Positions 1-48,295 of a stretch of 64,000 nt of DNA are shown here, in pieces; within the stretch, counting starts at the first letter, position 1, and every line of letters starts with the position of its first letter. The notes below the pieces were generated by a model, which worked only from the letters and a program-made list of their open reading frames with translations, had not been told where the DNA came from and searched no databases. Origin of the DNA: Arthrobacter pascens (GTDB lineage Bacteria > Actinomycetota > Actinomycetes > Actinomycetales > Micrococcaceae); NCBI RefSeq assembly GCF_030815585.1, contig NZ_JAUSWY010000001.1:248001-312000 (forward strand). Direction: 5' to 3'. A program made the translations under genes and the position numbers.

Positions 1-205
1 TTACACGCATTCGAACATACAGAGCGGTGTGGAGTACAGGGCCAGCTCCGAAGATCCAGTTGCAAGCGGCTTAGGCGCGCTGCCGCGCCGCGTGGAGGGT
101 TTTCCAGATTGGGCGAGAGGACGCTGTTCTTCTCCTGGGGTGAGGCGTACTCTGAGCGGAATCCTGCCCCGGACTTGGGTTCCAGGAGCAAATGGGGAAG
201 GGCGG
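1..205. other. Window edge, no supported gene
   Basis: I see no convincing gene here. The open frames on both strands are antisense or out-of-frame readings of the flank of the small gene that starts at 206 and have no protein-like composition. Confidence 0.5.
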
Positions 206-484
206 ATGAGCGAGATGACACTCAAAGAAGAGTGGGAACGGCTTGATTCTGAGACGCGCCAGTGGCTCCTGGCCAATCCGGGATGCGTGCTGGTGCCGCG
301 CACCGTCACCGCCCGGATAAAACAGGAGTCCGTCAGCCGCATCGAAGTCGACGACCACGGCCAGATGATGCTTTCCCGTGAGGATCTCGATTTCATCCGC
401 GAAAAAGGAGCTGACGCGGACGCGGGCCAAGGCAGTGTGGATTTCCGGTTCTTCGATGCAACACAGCCCCGAACGCCCGACTAA
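206..484 (+). CDS. Conserved hypothetical protein, 92 aa
   Basis: A small acidic soluble protein with no signal peptide or membrane segment. The frame is open further upstream, but the ATG at 206 is the likely start: the protein then opens MSEMTLKEEWERLD, and the upstream extension is low-complexity. The central part (around residues 18-40) reads LLANPGCVLVPRTVTARI, followed by an EVDDHGQ stretch. I recognise the style as a small hypothetical common in Arthrobacter, but I can assign no function. It lies convergent with the Hpt-like gene on the other strand, with a short gap between stops. Confidence 0.65.
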   Translation: MSEMTLKEEWERLDSETRQWLLANPGCVLVPRTVTARIKQESVSRIEVDDHGQMMLSREDLDFIREKGADADAGQGSVDFRFFDATQPRTPD

Positions 485-538
485 AACGTGTGCTTCTACG
501 AGGCAGGCAGAGGTCAGTGCCCTGCAGACGGAGACGCG

Positions 539-952
539 TCAGGTATTGTCTGGCTTCTGCCGTTGATGAGTTTGCAGACGGTGAATAGTTTGCCAGCTGC
601 ACTGCTTAATTCGGATGAAGCGGGCTGCGGCAAGCCGGGGCAGAGCGAGAGCGGGGTCAGCCTCGTCGAGGGTATCTGCACGAATGGACCGTTCCAGGTC
701 CACTGCAAGGCTGGCGAGGCGCTCCGCACCTACCATCTGGCTGGAGGTCTTGAGGCTGAGGACCGCATCCAGGGCACCTGCAAGGTCGCCGGTGGTCAGG
801 GTCAGGCGGAGCCGTTCATTCCTGTGGGGCAGGTATTCGATGAAATCCCGGACGAAGACCTTCCAAACTCCATCGTCATTCAAATCGGCGCGCAGCATCT
901 CCAGCACAGATGAGTCCATAAGAGGCGGTGGGTCGCTGGGCGGCTCGGTCAC
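539..952 (-). CDS. Hpt-domain-like protein lacking the phosphoacceptor histidine
   Basis: 137 aa. The stretch FVRDFIEYLPHRNERLR, then DAVLSLKTSSQMVGAERLA, then DLE follows the four-helix Hpt (histidine phosphotransfer) fold. In active Hpt domains the central motif reads H-S-L-K-G-S-S-x-x-x-G-A. Here the aligned segment is L-S-L-K-T-S-S-Q-M-V-G-A, so leucine sits where the phosphorylated histidine should be. The protein therefore should not relay phosphate in the normal way. It may be a structural binding partner of a receiver or kinase domain. The C-terminal tail is basic and glutamine-rich. No kinase or receiver gene is adjacent. The fold assignment is by pattern recognition; the missing His is directly visible. 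Confidence 0.65.
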   Translation of the reverse strand: MTEPPSDPPPLMDSSVLEMLRADLNDDGVWKVFVRDFIEYLPHRNERLRLTLTTGDLAGALDAVLSLKTSSQMVGAERLASLAVDLERSIRADTLDEADPALALPRLAAARFIRIKQCSWQTIHRLQTHQRQKPDNT

Positions 953-1517
953 GGAAGGTGCCAGCGCTGGAGGGGCTCCCGGTCCACTGTCGAAAGTGGG
1001 ATTCTGGGGAGCCTACTTGAAGCTCCTTCAAGATGGTCTCCGCGACCGCACGGACGTTGACGTTCTGGTGCCCAGACAACTTGGGGATGACCGACTTCAG
1101 CAGTGTGCAGTGCCCCACGAACCTGTCGTTCCATGGCCATACCCCGCGCCTCCCGTCCTCAGCTGGATGCCCACGGATGCCGCGGGTCCTCCCGATCGAC
1201 GTTACGGGGCAGGGGATGGGAGAACACGAGTAATGGGTACTCGCATTTTCTGCTTCTGCTTCCTCATCGTGCTCTGTTTCAGAACAGCTTTGGCACAGGC
1301 GGGGGTTATGAAGAGAGGTGGTAGTAGTCGGAATCGGTGCCGCGAGCCGTCGGCAGCGGGATAGCCCCGATGCTTCGGAGTGTCCCATTTCCAAGGATGC
1401 GGGACGGGGATGTTGTGCTGATGGATGAGAAGCCAACTTTTGTTGGTGGATGCCAGTTTGAGGGGTCCGTGCCCGGTATCGTGCTCATTAGCACTGCAGT
1501 TGAAGGAAAGAAGCGCG
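953..1517. other. Gene-poor stretch with one palindromic repeat
   Basis: About 560 bases between the starts of two divergent genes. It contains the first copy of the 24-bp palindrome (1382-1405) and presumably both promoters. Minus-strand frames here contain a short protein-like patch (around 1010-1140) but lack a credible start or a sustained coding pattern, so I do not call a gene. Confidence 0.45.
1382..1405. repeat. 24-bp dispersed palindrome, copy 1
   Basis: Imperfect inverted repeat with ends GTCCC and GGGAC and core TTCCAAGGA. Identical in length and closely related to copies at 1977, 3140 and 3738. It lies between two divergent genes, so it is not simply a terminator. Confidence 0.7.
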
Positions 1518-1934
1518 ATGACGGAGATTTCCAAGGAGGCGGATCCTTTGACGGGTGACACTGTCCTGTCGCTGGGGCTTCATCCGAGCGCCGTCGACCT
1601 CTCTCAGCATCCAGAGCTAACACAGGAGATGCTGGAGGCTCGGATCGAGGCGGGCGAGGCAGCCATCCGCGAGGCGGGATACGATATCGTGCCTTGCCTA
1701 GTCACCTCGGACCTCGACCAAGCCGAAAAGAGCGTGCGGGAGTGCCTGGCCGTCCGTCCGGTCCAGGTAGTGATGATCGGGGCCGGCCTGCGAATGGCAG
1801 GGGAGCACACCTTGCTGTTCGAGCGCGTTCTCAACTTACTGAATGAGCTGGTACCGGGCGTGGTGTTTTGTTTCAACACCTCACCAGAGACCACCCTCGA
1901 TGCATTGCGCCGGTGGGCGCGCCCTAGCAACTGA
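1518..1934 (+). CDS. Conserved hypothetical protein, 138 aa
   Basis: Start at ATG 1518 is chosen because a purine-rich GAAGGAAAG lies just upstream and the protein then opens MTEISKEADP; the longer frame adds an unlikely N-terminus. The body has a Rossmann-like rhythm: LSLGLHPSAVDLS near residue 20, a long charged helix LEARIEAGEAAIREAGYD, then VVMIGAGLRMAGEHTLLFERVLNLLNE and VVFCFNTSPETTLDALRRW. Similar proteins recur in actinobacteria as hypotheticals, and I know no assigned function. It is the only gene between palindrome copies 1 and 2 and converges on the XRE gene. Confidence 0.7.
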   Translation: MTEISKEADPLTGDTVLSLGLHPSAVDLSQHPELTQEMLEARIEAGEAAIREAGYDIVPCLVTSDLDQAEKSVRECLAVRPVQVVMIGAGLRMAGEHTLLFERVLNLLNELVPGVVFCFNTSPETTLDALRRWARPSN

Positions 1935-1976
1935 GACGGCCTCAGGACTCAATCTAGGAATCTCACCCTCCGGTGT

Positions 1977-2000
1977 GTCCCATTACCAAGGAACTGGGAC
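1977..2000. repeat. 24-bp dispersed palindrome, copy 2
   Basis: GTCCCATTACC then AAGGAACTGGGAC. It lies in the 92-bp gap between convergent genes ending at 1934 (+) and 2027 (-), where it could also form a terminator hairpin. Confidence 0.75.
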
Positions 2001-2026
2001 GAGCGTGCCGTTCGGATGTGCATTGA

Positions 2027-2269
2027 TCAGCTTCCCTCTTGCGAGGTGGTGACGACAAACAATTCACCGACCGAACAGTCGAGAACATCACAGATCGCGG
2101 ACAACGTGGAAAAGCGGATCGCACGCGCCCGGTCGTTTTTCAGCACAGACAGGTTGACGATACTGACGCCTACTCGCTGGCTGAGCTCGGTCAAGGTCAT
2201 GCCCCGGGCCGCGAGGAGCTCATCGAGTCGGCAATGGATTCGCTGCTCTTCATGTGGTGCGGGAGCCAT
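2027..2269 (-). CDS. XRE/Cro-CI (YozG-type) helix-turn-helix regulator
   Basis: An 80-aa single-domain DNA-binding protein. Residues 11-70 form the five-helix XRE fold: RLDELLAARGMTLTELSQRVGVS (helices 1-2), IVNLSVLKNDRARAI (recognition region), then FSTLSAICDVLDCSVGELF. It lacks any effector domain, as usual for YozG-like regulators encoded beside DUF2975 membrane proteins. Its ATG overlaps the TGA of the upstream DUF2975 gene by one base (TGATG), so the two are translationally coupled. The large palindrome at 2904-2942 is the obvious candidate operator for autoregulation. Confidence 0.85.
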   Translation of the reverse strand: MAPAPHEEQRIHCRLDELLAARGMTLTELSQRVGVSIVNLSVLKNDRARAIRFSTLSAICDVLDCSVGELFVVTTSQEGS

Positions 2270-2880
2270 CAGATCAGCCCGTCCAGTTCCAACTGCTGGC
2301 GCCGGCCGGTCTCGAACATGCTCGCGAGAGCGGCAGCGCCGAGTCCAATCGCGATCGGCCACACATTTAGTTCCATGAGGAAGAAGGCCCCCGTTTCCCG
2401 TTCCGGAAGCAATCCGATCCGATCGAGGACCGAGTGGTGGGCAATCGCTTCCATGAAGGGGCCCAGGAGACCCCAGGTCATAACGGCTATGCCCGAGATG
2501 CCGACGGCGCGGGCCAGTTGCTTTCCGAAGCCTGTGCCACGGTAGACGGACCAACTGATCAGGCCCAGAGTCGCTGCGGACAACAGACCGGCAAGACCGC
2601 CCAGGAGTCCTGATCCGAGCAGCAAATAACGCTCAGCCGAAGTAAGGCTGGCCGGCTGCACACCGGCTGTGGCATACGCGGCTTTGATGACTTCACTGTT
2701 GCCCTCACCCAGCGTGGGTGTCACCAGGTTCGTGAGGGGCACATTCAGAAGAGACGTATTCGCCAGCCCGGAGTACACAGCCACGATCGCCGAAACGACG
2801 ATGCTGAGTGCTGCTAGTCCAAAAATGACGGCAAACAGCAAAGCGCCCTTGCGGTCCAAATGAGCAAACGTCGCTGCCAC
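2269..2880 (-). CDS. DUF2975-family membrane protein
   Basis: About 203 aa with four membrane segments: near residues 16-40 (LLFAVIFGLAALSIVVSAIV), 86-115 (LLLGSGLLGGLAGLLSAATLG), 130-150 and a final one beginning NVWPIAIGLGAAALASMF. The C-terminus ETGRRQQLELDGLI matches the R..L..D.EGL ending of DUF2975 proteins. I favour the GTG at 2880, which has GGGGATGG just upstream. An ATG at 2925 also opens the frame but lies inside the 39-bp palindrome and would add a hydrophilic leader. DUF2975 function is unknown; pairing with a small XRE regulator is typical. Confidence 0.75.
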   Translation of the reverse strand: MAATFAHLDRKGALLFAVIFGLAALSIVVSAIVAVYSGLANTSLLNVPLTNLVTPTLGEGNSEVIKAAYATAGVQPASLTSAERYLLLGSGLLGGLAGLLSAATLGLISWSVYRGTGFGKQLARAVGISGIAVMTWGLLGPFMEAIAHHSVLDRIGLLPERETGAFFLMELNVWPIAIGLGAAALASMFETGRRQQLELDGLI

Positions 2881-2903
2881 AGTCCATCCCCAATCCAAGA
2901 TAA

Positions 2904-2942
2904 ATTTATCGTTTGTCGTTAACATAACGACAAACGATAAAT
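2904..2942. promoter_or_regulatory. 39-bp near-perfect palindrome, probable operator
   Basis: Two 18-bp perfectly complementary arms (2904-2921 and 2925-2942) around a 3-base spacer, AT-rich, centred on TATCGTTTGTCGTT and its complement. It sits immediately upstream of the DUF2975 start, where a repressor would block expression. The XRE protein of the same operon is the likely ligand (inference). Confidence 0.7.
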
Positions 2943-3139
2943 ACTTCAAGACGCCTGTGTGGAAGACCGCCATTCCTTACTGAAAGGCACCAGTAGTGCG
3001 CCGAAGTGTGACCTCATTTCGCCTCGGTCGCGGCGGCCACAGCTCCATAGCGTTCCTGTCTGGTTAGGTCCTACACCAACCGGACGTCAGACGAGTACCG
3101 CCAGCGGATCCCGAACGGTGGGAGTGTCCCACCGGGACT

Positions 3140-3163
3140 GTCCCGGTTCCAAGAAAATGGAAC
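3140..3163. repeat. 24-bp dispersed palindrome, copy 3
   Basis: GTCCCGGTTCC then AAGAAAATGGAAC, the most diverged copy. A shorter GTCCC-ACC-GGGAC palindrome precedes it at 3126-3138. It lies 27 bp upstream of the DHFR start in a divergent promoter region. Confidence 0.6.
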
Positions 3164-3190
3164 ACAGGTAAAGATGAGTACAGTGGCCGG

Positions 3191-3706
3191 GTGAGTATCA
3201 AATTGGTCGTTGCACACGACAGAACGAGGGGCATCGGCCGCGCTGGCTCTTTGCCTTGGGATCTCCCCGGAGAAATGAAAAGGCTGTCTGCGCTAACCCG
3301 TCAGACGAAGTCTCAGAGCGGCAGGAATGCCCTCATCATGGGAAGGGCGACCTACCAGTCACTCCCGGATGGTCGGAGACCATTGCCCGGACGCCTACAC
3401 GTGGTCGTCACAAGCCGACCTATCGAGGATGAACGCGTGTTATCTGCCTCAAGCTTGTCGACGGCTTTGGCCGCTGCAGCGGACACCCCAGGTATTGAAG
3501 ATGTGTATATTTTTGGCGGTGCTCGCATCTACGAGCAAGCGTTGAATGCATTGATCCCTGATGAACTCCTGATCTCAGTGATCAACGCAGAGTTCGAATG
3601 CGACACGTTTCTATCCGCCGTACCAGCGGAGTATGTACTGGAGATGTCAGAGAAAGCAATTTACGGCACCACGAGTGTTCGGCACGAAACCTATAGTAAG
3701 GCGTGA
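3191..3706 (+). CDS. Dihydrofolate reductase
   Basis: 171 aa, normal length for bacterial DHFR, which reduces dihydrofolate to tetrahydrofolate with NADPH. Visible signatures: N-terminal LVVAHDRTRGIG, then SLPWDLPGEMKRL with a glutamate at the active-site acid position, NALIMGRATYQSLP (cofactor phosphate region), LHVVVTSRP and EDVYIFGGARIYEQAL (conserved GG). The GTG at 3191 is the only start giving the complete N-terminal strand; an ATG just upstream is out of frame and stops at once. The sequence is divergent from a typical housekeeping actinobacterial FolA, and no thymidylate synthase is adjacent. The gene lies alone between palindrome copies 3 and 4 in slightly AT-richer DNA, suggesting an acquired extra copy. 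Trimethoprim insensitivity is possible but not shown. Confidence 0.88.
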   Translation: MSIKLVVAHDRTRGIGRAGSLPWDLPGEMKRLSALTRQTKSQSGRNALIMGRATYQSLPDGRRPLPGRLHVVVTSRPIEDERVLSASSLSTALAAAADTPGIEDVYIFGGARIYEQALNALIPDELLISVINAEFECDTFLSAVPAEYVLEMSEKAIYGTTSVRHETYSKA

Positions 3707-3737
3707 CACGCCAACCAGATTAGTTCTCTTTGCATTT

Positions 3738-3761
3738 GTTCCACTTCTAAGGAAGTGGGAC
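3738..3761. repeat. 24-bp dispersed palindrome, copy 4
   Basis: GTTCCACTTC-TAA-GGAAGTGGGAC, the most symmetrical copy (nearly all ten flanking bases pair). It begins 31 bp after the DHFR stop. The remaining DNA to 3900 contains nothing else I can identify. Confidence 0.75.
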
Positions 3762-3900
3762 ACAGTTCTGCCTGACGGAGAATAGGTCCGTAGCCATTTA
3801 GTAGATCGGGGACAGCACCGATGGTGTCAGCGGATTTTCTCTATCAAGACATAGAGACCAGCATAAGTGCAGTGGCTCTTGGTCGTGGGCGACACTAGAA

Positions 3901-4395
3901 CTAGATTTCAATACCTTCAAGAATAGCGTCAACAACTTCGTTGATTGGGCGCGCAGTATTGATGGTTATGCCTTCAGGTAAGGCTTCTTTAGTTGCATGT
4001 AAACGCAGTACAAATTCAGTGGTATTGACACTGTCATTCACATCCCAATCATCCGCTGTGCGGCGGTCCAATCTATCCCTGAGTGTTTCGATATCCACGT
4101 CCAATACATATACTTTGTCGAATACGTCTATGAATTTATGCAAGTTCCTTGAACCGCCACAGAAAAAAGCCGCCCCATCTTCCTTATTGGCTACTATCTC
4201 TCTGACTTTATCAACGTCCCATATATGATACTGAAATCCAGGAGCATCTGTTGGCTTTCCCGTTTCAGGGTCGCCCCGATAAGCCAGTTCATCATCACCC
4301 TCAATGGTTTTATACCCGCGTTTTCGAAGTTCGCTAGATACCGAACTTTTGCCCGTGCCCGAACTGCCGCCGATAAGATAATTTCTCTTCGCCAT
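3901..4395 (-). CDS. Small P-loop NTPase / nucleoside-kinase-like protein
   Basis: 164 aa. Walker A is GGSSGTGKSS at residues 9-18, directly after an N-terminal strand NYLI, as in adenylate/shikimate/gluconate-kinase-type folds. Residues near 30 (TIEGDDELAY) resemble an acceptor-binding acidic motif, and near 115 LRDRLDRRTADDWD resembles a lid with arginines. Probably a small-molecule or nucleotide kinase; the substrate is unknown. The DNA is clearly AT-richer than the neighbours, with codons such as ata and tta, indicating recent acquisition. No clear ribosome binding site precedes the ATG. It follows palindrome copy 4 and precedes a truncated gene, so it belongs to the accessory patch. Confidence 0.72.
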   Translation of the reverse strand: MAKRNYLIGGSSGTGKSSVSSELRKRGYKTIEGDDELAYRGDPETGKPTDAPGFQYHIWDVDKVREIVANKEDGAAFFCGGSRNLHKFIDVFDKVYVLDVDIETLRDRLDRRTADDWDVNDSVNTTEFVLRLHATKEALPEGITINTARPINEVVDAILEGIEI

Positions 4396-4502
4396 TGACT
4401 CATTGTACGAAATAGGTCGGTGAACCGTCCCCTCCTCAGAAGAACAAAACCGCTACGCCTACGTAAACTGCAACGCCATCAACGCATAACGATGCCCGAG
4501 TC

Positions 4503-4790
4503 CTAGGCGTCCATTCCGACCTCGGTGATCTTGTCGACGTCGAAGATCGCGATATAGAAGCCCTCTTCGGCCTTGTACTCAAGCGAACCGTAGACGCGGC
4601 CGTCTTTCGTATTGAAGTCCAGGTCGCCGAGGTGGCCGGTGAACCCTTCAACCGTCTCGACGACGTTCCCCTTCACATCGGTCTTGACCAGCATGTCGGT
4701 GAACGAGTGGTAGACGTACCCGTTCTTCTCGGCGATCGCGACGCCTTGAATTTCCTCTTCACGATTTGCGTTTTTTGGATGCTAGCGCTG
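4503..4790 (-). pseudogene. Remnant of a larger conserved gene
   Basis: The frame encodes about 90 residues, including NANREEEIQGVAIAEKNGY, HSFTDMLVKTD, FTGHLGDLDFNTKDGRVYGSLEYK and FYIAIFDVDKI, then stops after VGMDA. This looks like the interior of a longer secreted or beta-propeller-like protein: there is no start codon or signal peptide at its upstream end, which runs into the stop region of the phosphoesterase gene, and it ends abruptly. An internal ATG at 4694 would give only 63 aa. I treat it as a fragment truncated at both ends, left at the edge of the 1.4-4.4 kb accessory patch. The full-length family has no function known to me. Confidence 0.6.
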
Positions 4791-5966
4791 CCGCGGGTCC
4801 AGCGGGAGGGGAACGATGGGCTGGTCATCGGCCGTCAGGTCGATGCCCAGATCTTCTGCGAAAACGATCCGCGTGTCCTTGTAGATCCCGGGGTGGTTTT
4901 CGTCCAGCTCAAAGACACGCGCGCCGCGCAGGCGGTTCCGGTCAGGACCAGGCAGGCCGTAGGCGCCGAATCCTGTTCCAGGTGCGTAGCCGAGTTGAAC
5001 ACCGTAGTAGTTGCCTACATACGTGTTGACGTGATCGTGTCCCACAAAGTATCCGAGCACATCCCCACGCTCCAGGAAGGCATTGAACAGGCCGGAATTG
5101 ATGGGACCGGGGCACTCGTCTTCGTTCCGTTCTCCGACAATATTGTGCTTCTTGGCCGCCCGCGCGTGGTCTGCATCCGTCCGCGAGTCGAGGCTGGCGA
5201 ACCACATGTTGCGGTGTTCATGCAGGGCAATGTGGCCCCACATGAGGGAGGGGATTTTCCTCCCGTATTTTTGCTCGGTTGCGATTGACAGATTCCGGTA
5301 CCACGTGAGCTGGTCCATACGTACCCAGTCCCAGTCCGGGTAGCCCTCGAAGTCCTGCCCATTGATGCTGTCCGGGGCGTACCGGCCGGTGTCGATGAGC
5401 CAGAGGCCAAAGGCCGGAGCCTTCGATCGGGAGGATTGCACCAGCAGCTGCGAGTTGGAGGTGCCGGTGAGGCCCGGCGTGGAGTCAGCATTGACGTTGT
5501 GTTCATAGGTCTGCAGGAACTGGAGCATTTTGGCTTCGGTCATCCCGGTTCGCTCCACCGAGTCTTCATCATGGTTGCCGAAGGTCACGGCCCAGGGGAT
5601 CCGCCTGTGTTCCATGGGCTGGACCACGTGGTTGAGCGCCTGTTTGACCTCTAACTCGGAGTCGCATCCGCCGTTGATCACATCTCCGTTGATGACCACA
5701 AAGTCCGGCTTTTCCGCATCCAGCGTCCGGTCCATGAGTTCGATCGTGCGGCGGTCGGTCTGCTCGTCGTCCTGGGTGTCGTTGAACTGAACAATTTTGA
5801 ATGTGCCGTCCGGGCGGAAGGCCAGGGTGGGCTTTGCTGCCTTCGGGCCAGGTGCTGCTTCACTCCAGGCTCCCGCGGACACTGTGATTCCCAGCGCGCC
5901 AAGCGTTCCGGCGGCAGCCAAAGCGGCCCGTCTGCTGAGGTTGGGCTGGTGGATGCCTGTGGTCAT
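4782..5966 (-). CDS. Tat-exported calcineurin-like metallophosphoesterase
   Basis: 394 aa. The N-terminus LSRRAALAAAGTLGALG is a twin-arginine signal, so the enzyme is exported folded. Metallophosphoesterase motifs in order: FNDTQD near residue 61 (D-x-Q in place of the usual D-x-H, as in the Dcr2/PhoD-like purple acid phosphatase group), NGDVINGG near 96, FGNHDED near 130, WGHIALHEH near 243 and VGHDHVN near 318. These supply a two-metal centre hydrolysing phosphate esters. The sequence ends QPIVPLPLDP. Probably an extracellular phosphatase or phosphodiesterase for phosphate scavenging; the substrate is unknown. It is followed by the gene remnant and preceded by an aldo/keto reductase gene on the same strand, about 120 bp away. 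Confidence 0.88.
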   Translation of the reverse strand: MTTGIHQPNLSRRAALAAAGTLGALGITVSAGAWSEAAPGPKAAKPTLAFRPDGTFKIVQFNDTQDDEQTDRRTIELMDRTLDAEKPDFVVINGDVINGGCDSELEVKQALNHVVQPMEHRRIPWAVTFGNHDEDSVERTGMTEAKMLQFLQTYEHNVNADSTPGLTGTSNSQLLVQSSRSKAPAFGLWLIDTGRYAPDSINGQDFEGYPDWDWVRMDQLTWYRNLSIATEQKYGRKIPSLMWGHIALHEHRNMWFASLDSRTDADHARAAKKHNIVGERNEDECPGPINSGLFNAFLERGDVLGYFVGHDHVNTYVGNYYGVQLGYAPGTGFGAYGLPGPDRNRLRGARVFELDENHPGIYKDTRIVFAEDLGIDLTADDQPIVPLPLDPRQR

Positions 5967-6086
5967 GGTTGCCTCTTTTCGCCGATGCGGCCCCGCTGCA
6001 AGGCCGCTGCTCCATCCAGAGGCTAGAAGACTGAAGCATCCAGCCCTGAAACAGGTGGTGAACGCCGTGCGGCAGAGGCGATGTCT

Positions 6087-7214
<1,128 letters not shown>

Positions 7215-48269: not shown

Positions 48270-48295
48270 ACGACGGCGGGACGTCCCGCCGTCGT
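48270..48295. terminator. GACGACGGCGGG-family hairpin, copy 1
   Basis: Perfect 26-bp palindrome, ACGACGGCGGGAC and its complement with no loop bases. About 90 bp after the GPP34 stop and just before the end of the possible minus-strand gene, so well placed as a two-way terminator. Four relatives occur at 50751, 55893, 56494 and 62270. Confidence 0.7.

Follow-up and report, generated by a model that had tools for sequence, protein, structure and literature searches.

A 64,000-nucleotide stretch of DNA (hereafter the window), spanning positions 248001-312000 of the single-contig 4.73-Mb genome of Arthrobacter pascens, carries four copies of a short repeat set between unrelated genes. These copies very probably represent crossover sites of a clade of small serine recombinases, delimiting mobile cassettes, most of them with one gene, in Arthrobacter and related bacteria. 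On balance, they seem to belong to a third kind of mobile gene-cassette system, next to integrons and Xer-dif modules, in which small serine recombinases of actinobacterial plasmids would take up, arrange and release cassettes, mostly of one gene, at a 26-bp site; the arrays would include defence, toxin-antitoxin and unknown genes, and orphan arrays would be left in Micrococcaceae chromosomes. The sites, the recombinase clade linked to them, their one-way arrays, the recurrence of the same cassettes across arrays and the switch within the site at its central dinucleotide can be read directly from the compared genomes.

Site arrays and probable exchange at the central dinucleotide

The initial annotation described the repeat as four 24-bp palindromes. 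All four 24-mers (starting at 1382, 1977, 3140 and 3738, each on the + strand) are present and form a repeat with inverted symmetry; the symmetry is imperfect (8, 9, 7 and 9 of 11 arm pairs matched), and the unit is better described as 26 bp, namely a 12-bp half, a central AA and a second 12-bp half. Symmetry alone is unremarkable, because 20 places in the window reach at least 9 of 11 arm pairs and only two of them are these sites. The 26-bp weight matrix behind the scores in Table 1 was built from exact pattern matches and loosened in two rounds, its training set including the window's own sites. Nothing else in the window exceeds 5 on this matrix, save the same four sites on the opposite strand, and 20 Markov-1 resamples of the window reach 13.9 at best. 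As a repeated sequence, the four copies lie far beyond chance.

Elsewhere in the same genome, further clusters occur at 568.8-570.0 kb and 2222.9-2224.3 kb, along with a copy at 2388.6 kb and weaker copies at 1733.7 and 3418.4 kb. When up to two mismatches are allowed, 90 of the genus's 198 genomes carry the site, among them the window's own; a reversed-pattern control gave no match in the window's genome and zero in each of the 198. The exact degenerate pattern, searched in one genome per species, occurs in 110 stretches, 107 of them from Actinomycetota (the other three come from Alteromonas and from two metagenome bins labelled Proteobacteria and Chlorobiota), and no viral contig matched it. 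The centre is AA in 223 of the 242 distinct sites.

Close neighbours share one direction. With repeated loci dropped, as also for the cassette and recombinase counts below, neighbouring AA-centred sites scoring at least 20, to which this count is confined, agree in 79 of 79 cases within 5 kb and in 87 of 88 within 10 kb, the sole exception being locus L229. Two sets of listed matches, which omit second-strand matches and most sites without an AA centre, behave alike: among 125 sites of 51 genomes and another 87 sites of 28 genomes, direction is the same in 34/34 and 19/19 cases within 5 kb and in 36/36 and 25/25 within 10 kb, while among the matches listed more than 20 kb apart both directions occur (the same in 9 cases and different in 5; the same in 8 and different in 4). 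In the 125-site set, one pair separated by 19.7 kb includes a TA-centred site. Sites that are weaker or have another centre, and would break the direction rule, are present in L108 (score 18), L168 (score 16), L230 (TA centre) and L233 (AT centre).

Arrays hold up to five sites. Neighbouring sites delimit 67 intervals no longer than 4.1 kb, with a median length of 1375 bp and a median G+C of 0.588 (vs 0.635 for the window). The initial annotation had asked whether copies cluster around variable single genes, and they do flank variable genes: exactly one open reading frame (ORF) of at least 95 aa is present in 33 of 52 intervals (those of at most 2.2 kb with such an ORF), a count that is approximate because the ORF caller is crude. 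In these 52 intervals the longest ORF has the same direction as the site 35 times and the opposite direction 17 times.

The cargo is diverse. Some of 111 listed interval ORFs of at least 95 aa were scanned against Pfam; the scan covered 50 proteins, 48 of them from intervals (four from the window), together with the window's kinase and one recombinase of the same genome. The families recovered include GNAT, MarR, GAF-ANTAR, NmrA with Rrf2, MACPF, AbiV, VanW, Barstar, glyoxalase, AbiJ with kinase, alpha/beta hydrolase, APH-like, TetR, RES, CoiA-type nuclease, SIR2, methyltransferase, YCII, PAP2, XRE and DHFR (dihydrofolate reductase). For 20 of the 50 proteins no Pfam family was found at E 0.01, and three more had matches below the curated cut-off only. 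PADLOC matched 2 of 10 cassette proteins, one of them to a candidate defence family (E 5.7e-144). On plasmid pAD52 of Arthrobacter sp. D5-1 (L235 7501-8793), an abortive-infection family gene adjoins the site, across it from the recombinase; AbiV, AbiJ-kinase and SIR2 genes are cassettes at other loci.

Whole units recur in different arrays. A GNAT cassette of 665 bp is bounded by sites in L167, L177 (99.7%) and L169 (93.2%), and flank families place both of its ends in L216 and L219 too; at its junctions, five upstream sites lead to four neighbours and six downstream sites to five. A cassette with a 126-aa gene stands after the GNAT cassette in L177, with one cassette between, and before it in L169; its two versions match over 686 bp at 95% and differ in the remainder. 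L043 and L128 have in common a PAP2-GNAT block (89% identity) with different flanks, and L177 and L183 a 1.7-kb cassette (95% identity). Considering flank families with several members each, the partner changes at the site in 16 of 17 upstream-flank and 15 of 17 downstream-flank families. One flank family (L079 and four others, from Nocardiopsis and Streptomyces) shows conservation on either side of the site and probably does not belong to the cassette system.

The position of the switch can be traced within the site itself. In 16 pairs with at least 95% flank identity, half-site mismatches number 3/192 on the shared side vs 31/192 on the other, and in all 69 pairs sharing one side, 72/828 vs 142/828; pairs share members, and neither pairs nor loci are independent. 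Inner half-sites go along with the cassette, and outer half-sites stay behind. Judged from these alignments, the switch falls in the central dinucleotide, where a serine recombinase would be expected to act. Three plasmid pairs are about 97% identical on the recombinase side and diverge at the site: L208/L235 over 3650 bp, L213/L237 over 8720 bp, and L140 and pSI-1 (pair L140/L206) over 3153 bp.

Positions 1-7200 of the window were compared with the 198 genomes of the genus. Window positions 1491-1999 are 94% identical to L195 7849-8358, on a 71-kb contig of genome G109, and the match stops at site 2, where half-site mismatches number 1 on the shared side and 3 on the other. The window's units would qualify as cassettes through their arrangement and through what this site does at other loci; within the window, direct comparative support concerns site 2 only.

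Small serine recombinases linked to the site

The co-occurring recombinase called for by the initial annotation is found beside the site in other genomes and on plasmids. The window has no serine recombinase: the PF00239 search of its genome gave seven places, all outside 248001-312000. With one recombinase of this genome as query, 67 ORFs were retrieved in loci L034-L157, of which 60 were parsed and seven skipped for want of a start motif. In 41 of the 60 (one a duplicate locus), a site centre lies 92-175 bp upstream of the script-chosen start, and in 32 of those 41 the distance is 127-142 bp. The tree of 62 recombinases unites the linked enzymes in one clade of 37 (support 100/99), 33 of them parsed with a site at 92-175 bp. 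The remaining members are L180 (a near-copy of L046), the unparsed L127 (142 bp by hand) and L150, and L082, with its site at 497 bp; no site at 92-175 bp upstream was seen in the other rows of this tree.

The closest solved relatives of the linked recombinase in the PDB are Gin invertase (the best) and Tn3 resolvase. The stretch between site and recombinase gene is conserved and resembles the accessory part of a res site. Of 13 plasmid stretches viewed, 9 have a ParA or partition gene annotated no more than a few kb from the recombinase; two of the 13 are the same sequence. In Micrococcaceae, all 23 recombinases within 2.5 kb of an AA site are on its 5' side, 11 pointing away from it and 12 running with it. 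Two of these collinear genes (L046 and L180) are themselves cassettes. The other ten, 5' of sites in L035, L047, L100, L103, L113, L115, L166, L170, L175 and L178, encode serine recombinases outside the clade, which may be passenger or partner enzymes.

The two cassettes carrying a clade recombinase (L046 6398-7365 and L180 6798-7765) are 99.9% identical in two genomes and have a TA-centred site upstream and an AA site downstream. In L056, L058, L093 and L109 (Corynebacterium, Kocuria) and in L082, L092 and L150, the central AA is reversed relative to the recombinase when compared with Micrococcaceae.

The window's genome has no clade member, its best match reaching 134.5 bits vs at least 326 for members, and on this comparison the window holds an orphan array. 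Across the genus, sites occur in 22 of 27 genomes with a clade recombinase above 200 bits vs 68 of 171 without one (Fisher p 5e-5), an association to which the recombinase's own site contributes. Such a distribution argues that the sites outlive or outtravel the recombinase.

Proposed system and alternative explanations

In the proposed mechanism, the palindromes would be site I type crossover sites (12 bp + AA + 12 bp) of a recombinase clade widespread in Actinobacteria, often the resolvase-like enzyme that Arthrobacter plasmids encode next to partition genes. A cassette, usually of one gene, would be bounded by two directly oriented sites; the recombinase would cleave at the central dinucleotide and swap strands between sites, and the cassette would be excised as a circle carrying one site. 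The circle, or another replicon, could then join at a resident site, and repeated joining would make the array grow on the site's side away from the recombinase. Arrays also occur in chromosomes, where the recombinase may be missing, as in the window's genome. Catalysis on the site, integration, gain as well as loss driven by the clade, the circular intermediate and a benefit to the host are inferred from the sequences. Integration is the weakest step, because resolvases of this type favour intramolecular deletion.

Several other findings also weigh against the cassette system. The initial annotation had proposed a search for gain or loss of whole units; recurrence and reordering of units were found, but a clean empty/filled pair (a difference of one cassette) was absent among the 242 distinct sites in a script search. 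L127 and pSI-1 remain alike for about 210 bp past the site, and pZXY23 (L236) has no site beside its recombinase. Outside Micrococcaceae, 9 of 33 linked recombinases are on the 3' side and 24 on the 5' side; 10 of the 12 collinear recombinases located 5' of arrays do not belong to the clade, nor does the only full recombinase near sites in the window's genome, and 68 of the 90 site-bearing genomes of the genus have no clade match above 200 bits. In the window, the gap at 520-1491 relative to G109 does not fall at a site, and relatives of the XRE unit occur in five genomes without sites.

Tn3-family res sites are among the closest known systems. As described in PMC7157771, new genes come to lie beside site I through exchange at the central dinucleotide, and the res/toxin-antitoxin exchange reported there likewise involves a small serine recombinase and a site I distal to its gene. 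The exchanges described there are, however, single ones inside transposons, whereas here 26-bp sites form arrays of independent cassettes, often far from a recombinase. A rather unlikely explanation extends this precedent: ordinary plasmid or transposon res sites would occasionally recombine and join unrelated backbones, leaving arrays as a by-product of cointegrates and decay. The res-like geometry of the enzyme, the nearby partition genes (9 of 13 plasmid stretches viewed) and the single Tn3-family exchanges agree with it, but the same small cassettes recur from mid-site to mid-site in several arrays and in varied order, and arrays of up to five sites, usually with one gene apiece, fit it poorly. 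Staphylococcal plasmid sin/res sites, described in PMC3276174 as hotspots for transposon insertion, resemble the present sites in that plasmid resolution sites gather extra DNA; there, the extra DNA is brought by transposons that insert into res or close to it.

A true integron with unusual attC sites is highly improbable, and the integron-like label of the initial annotation does not hold; the present system is similar to integrons in outline yet seems to rely on an unrelated enzyme. Integrons share with the present system one-way arrays of small, variable cassettes, a recombinase on the 5' side and CALIN-like orphan arrays, but an integron integrase (TIGR02249) over the cut-off was found in 0 of 198 genomes. 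The site is a simple 26-bp one without attC boxes by eye (a dissimilarity already suspected), genes run against it in 17 of 52 intervals, the crossover appears to lie within the central dinucleotide, and two of the four window sites fold as single strands no better than shuffles. Compared with the Hin/Gin invertases, Gin is the best solved relative of the linked recombinase and hix sites have the same 12 + AA + 12 geometry, but neighbouring sites here are direct rather than inverted. XerC/XerD sites have a 6-bp centre, whereas the centre here is 2 bp. In Acinetobacter plasmids, gene modules bounded by copies of a resolution site (pdif) are shuffled between plasmids (PMC13141974); the enzymes are the tyrosine recombinases XerC/XerD acting with dif, in contrast to the serine recombinase, 2-bp centre and single direction seen here. 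These dif modules are the closest cassette counterpart.

A repetitive extragenic palindromic (REP)-like repeat, a terminator or a regulator-binding site can be set aside as scarcely credible, since despite imperfect palindromes, mostly intergenic positions and a copy at 3738 that folds well as a single strand, one-sided breaks in homology fall at the central dinucleotide and near neighbours agree in direction (recombinase linkage and the lack of any Rfam match in window 1-7000 also oppose these roles, of which the initial annotation had named REP or regulator sites as the plain alternative and doubted a pure terminator). Its suggestion of recombinase-driven cassettes is supported: the sites cluster, run one way and flank variable genes, and whole units recur elsewhere, cut at the site. 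The site has inverted half-sites around a 2-bp centre, its cognate recombinase lies nearby in genomes other than the window's, and the same unit with exact boundaries occurs in different arrays. Judged by these sequence features, the system works like an integron or dif-module array, and its site and enzyme identify it as one of small serine recombinases.

Known cases of cassette capture involve chiefly tyrosine recombinases (integrons, Xer-dif). In the open-access literature, covered through titles and the starts of abstracts (preprints and most subscription papers lay outside), no description of serine-recombinase cassette arrays was found, and none of the res and dif systems above, as described in the papers cited, consists of cassettes arrayed and moved by a small serine recombinase. 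If the proposed system is real, ordinary plasmid resolution sites can turn into gene-capture platforms, and the exchange of small adaptive genes among Arthrobacter and its relatives would be explained. The site could also serve as a short tag with which to search for defence and stress genes whose function is unknown.

Sites and genes of the window

Table 1. Putative crossover sites and neighbouring genes in the window
Feature	Position	Strand	Evidence
Site 1	1381..1406	+	26 bp, matrix score 34.0
Site 2	1976..2001	+	26 bp, matrix score 35.6; homology to the G109 71-kb contig stops here
Site 3	3139..3164	+	26 bp, matrix score 38.1; upstream GGGAGTGTCCC stretch resembles that beside recombinase-linked sites
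Site 4	3737..3762	+	26 bp, matrix score 44.1
Cassette 1 gene, protein of unknown kind	1518..1934	+	ORF; Pfam matches below cut-off only
Cassette 2 gene, XRE-type regulator (HTH_26)	2027..2269	-	Pfam E 2.8e-19
Cassette 2 gene, protein without Pfam family	2269..2973	-	ORF, Pfam
Cassette 3 gene, dihydrofolate reductase	3191..3706	+	PF00186 E 2.3e-30
AAA-type kinase gene after the last site	3901..4395	-	PF13238 E 5.1e-7

Pfam agrees with the initial annotation on the XRE (HTH_26), DHFR and AAA-type kinase identities (Table 1); the DUF2975 label was not recovered, as 2272-2973 gave no family at E 0.01. Nor do two copies occupy divergent promoter regions, as had been stated: judged by the ORFs, those at 1977 and 3738 sit between convergent gene ends, and only the one at 3140 is clearly divergent. 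The matrix scan found no fifth site in the window, and the kinase gene, with no closing site after it, may or may not belong to the array; relatives of this kinase were found site-free in the genus comparison. In genome G127, a weak site (L202 4458, score 20) follows a relative of the cassette 1 gene by about 100 bp, in the same place as in the window. A second repeated 24-bp palindrome, CGACGGCGGGACGTCCCGCCGTCG with close variants, is present in three copies in the window, at 48271, 56496 and 62275.

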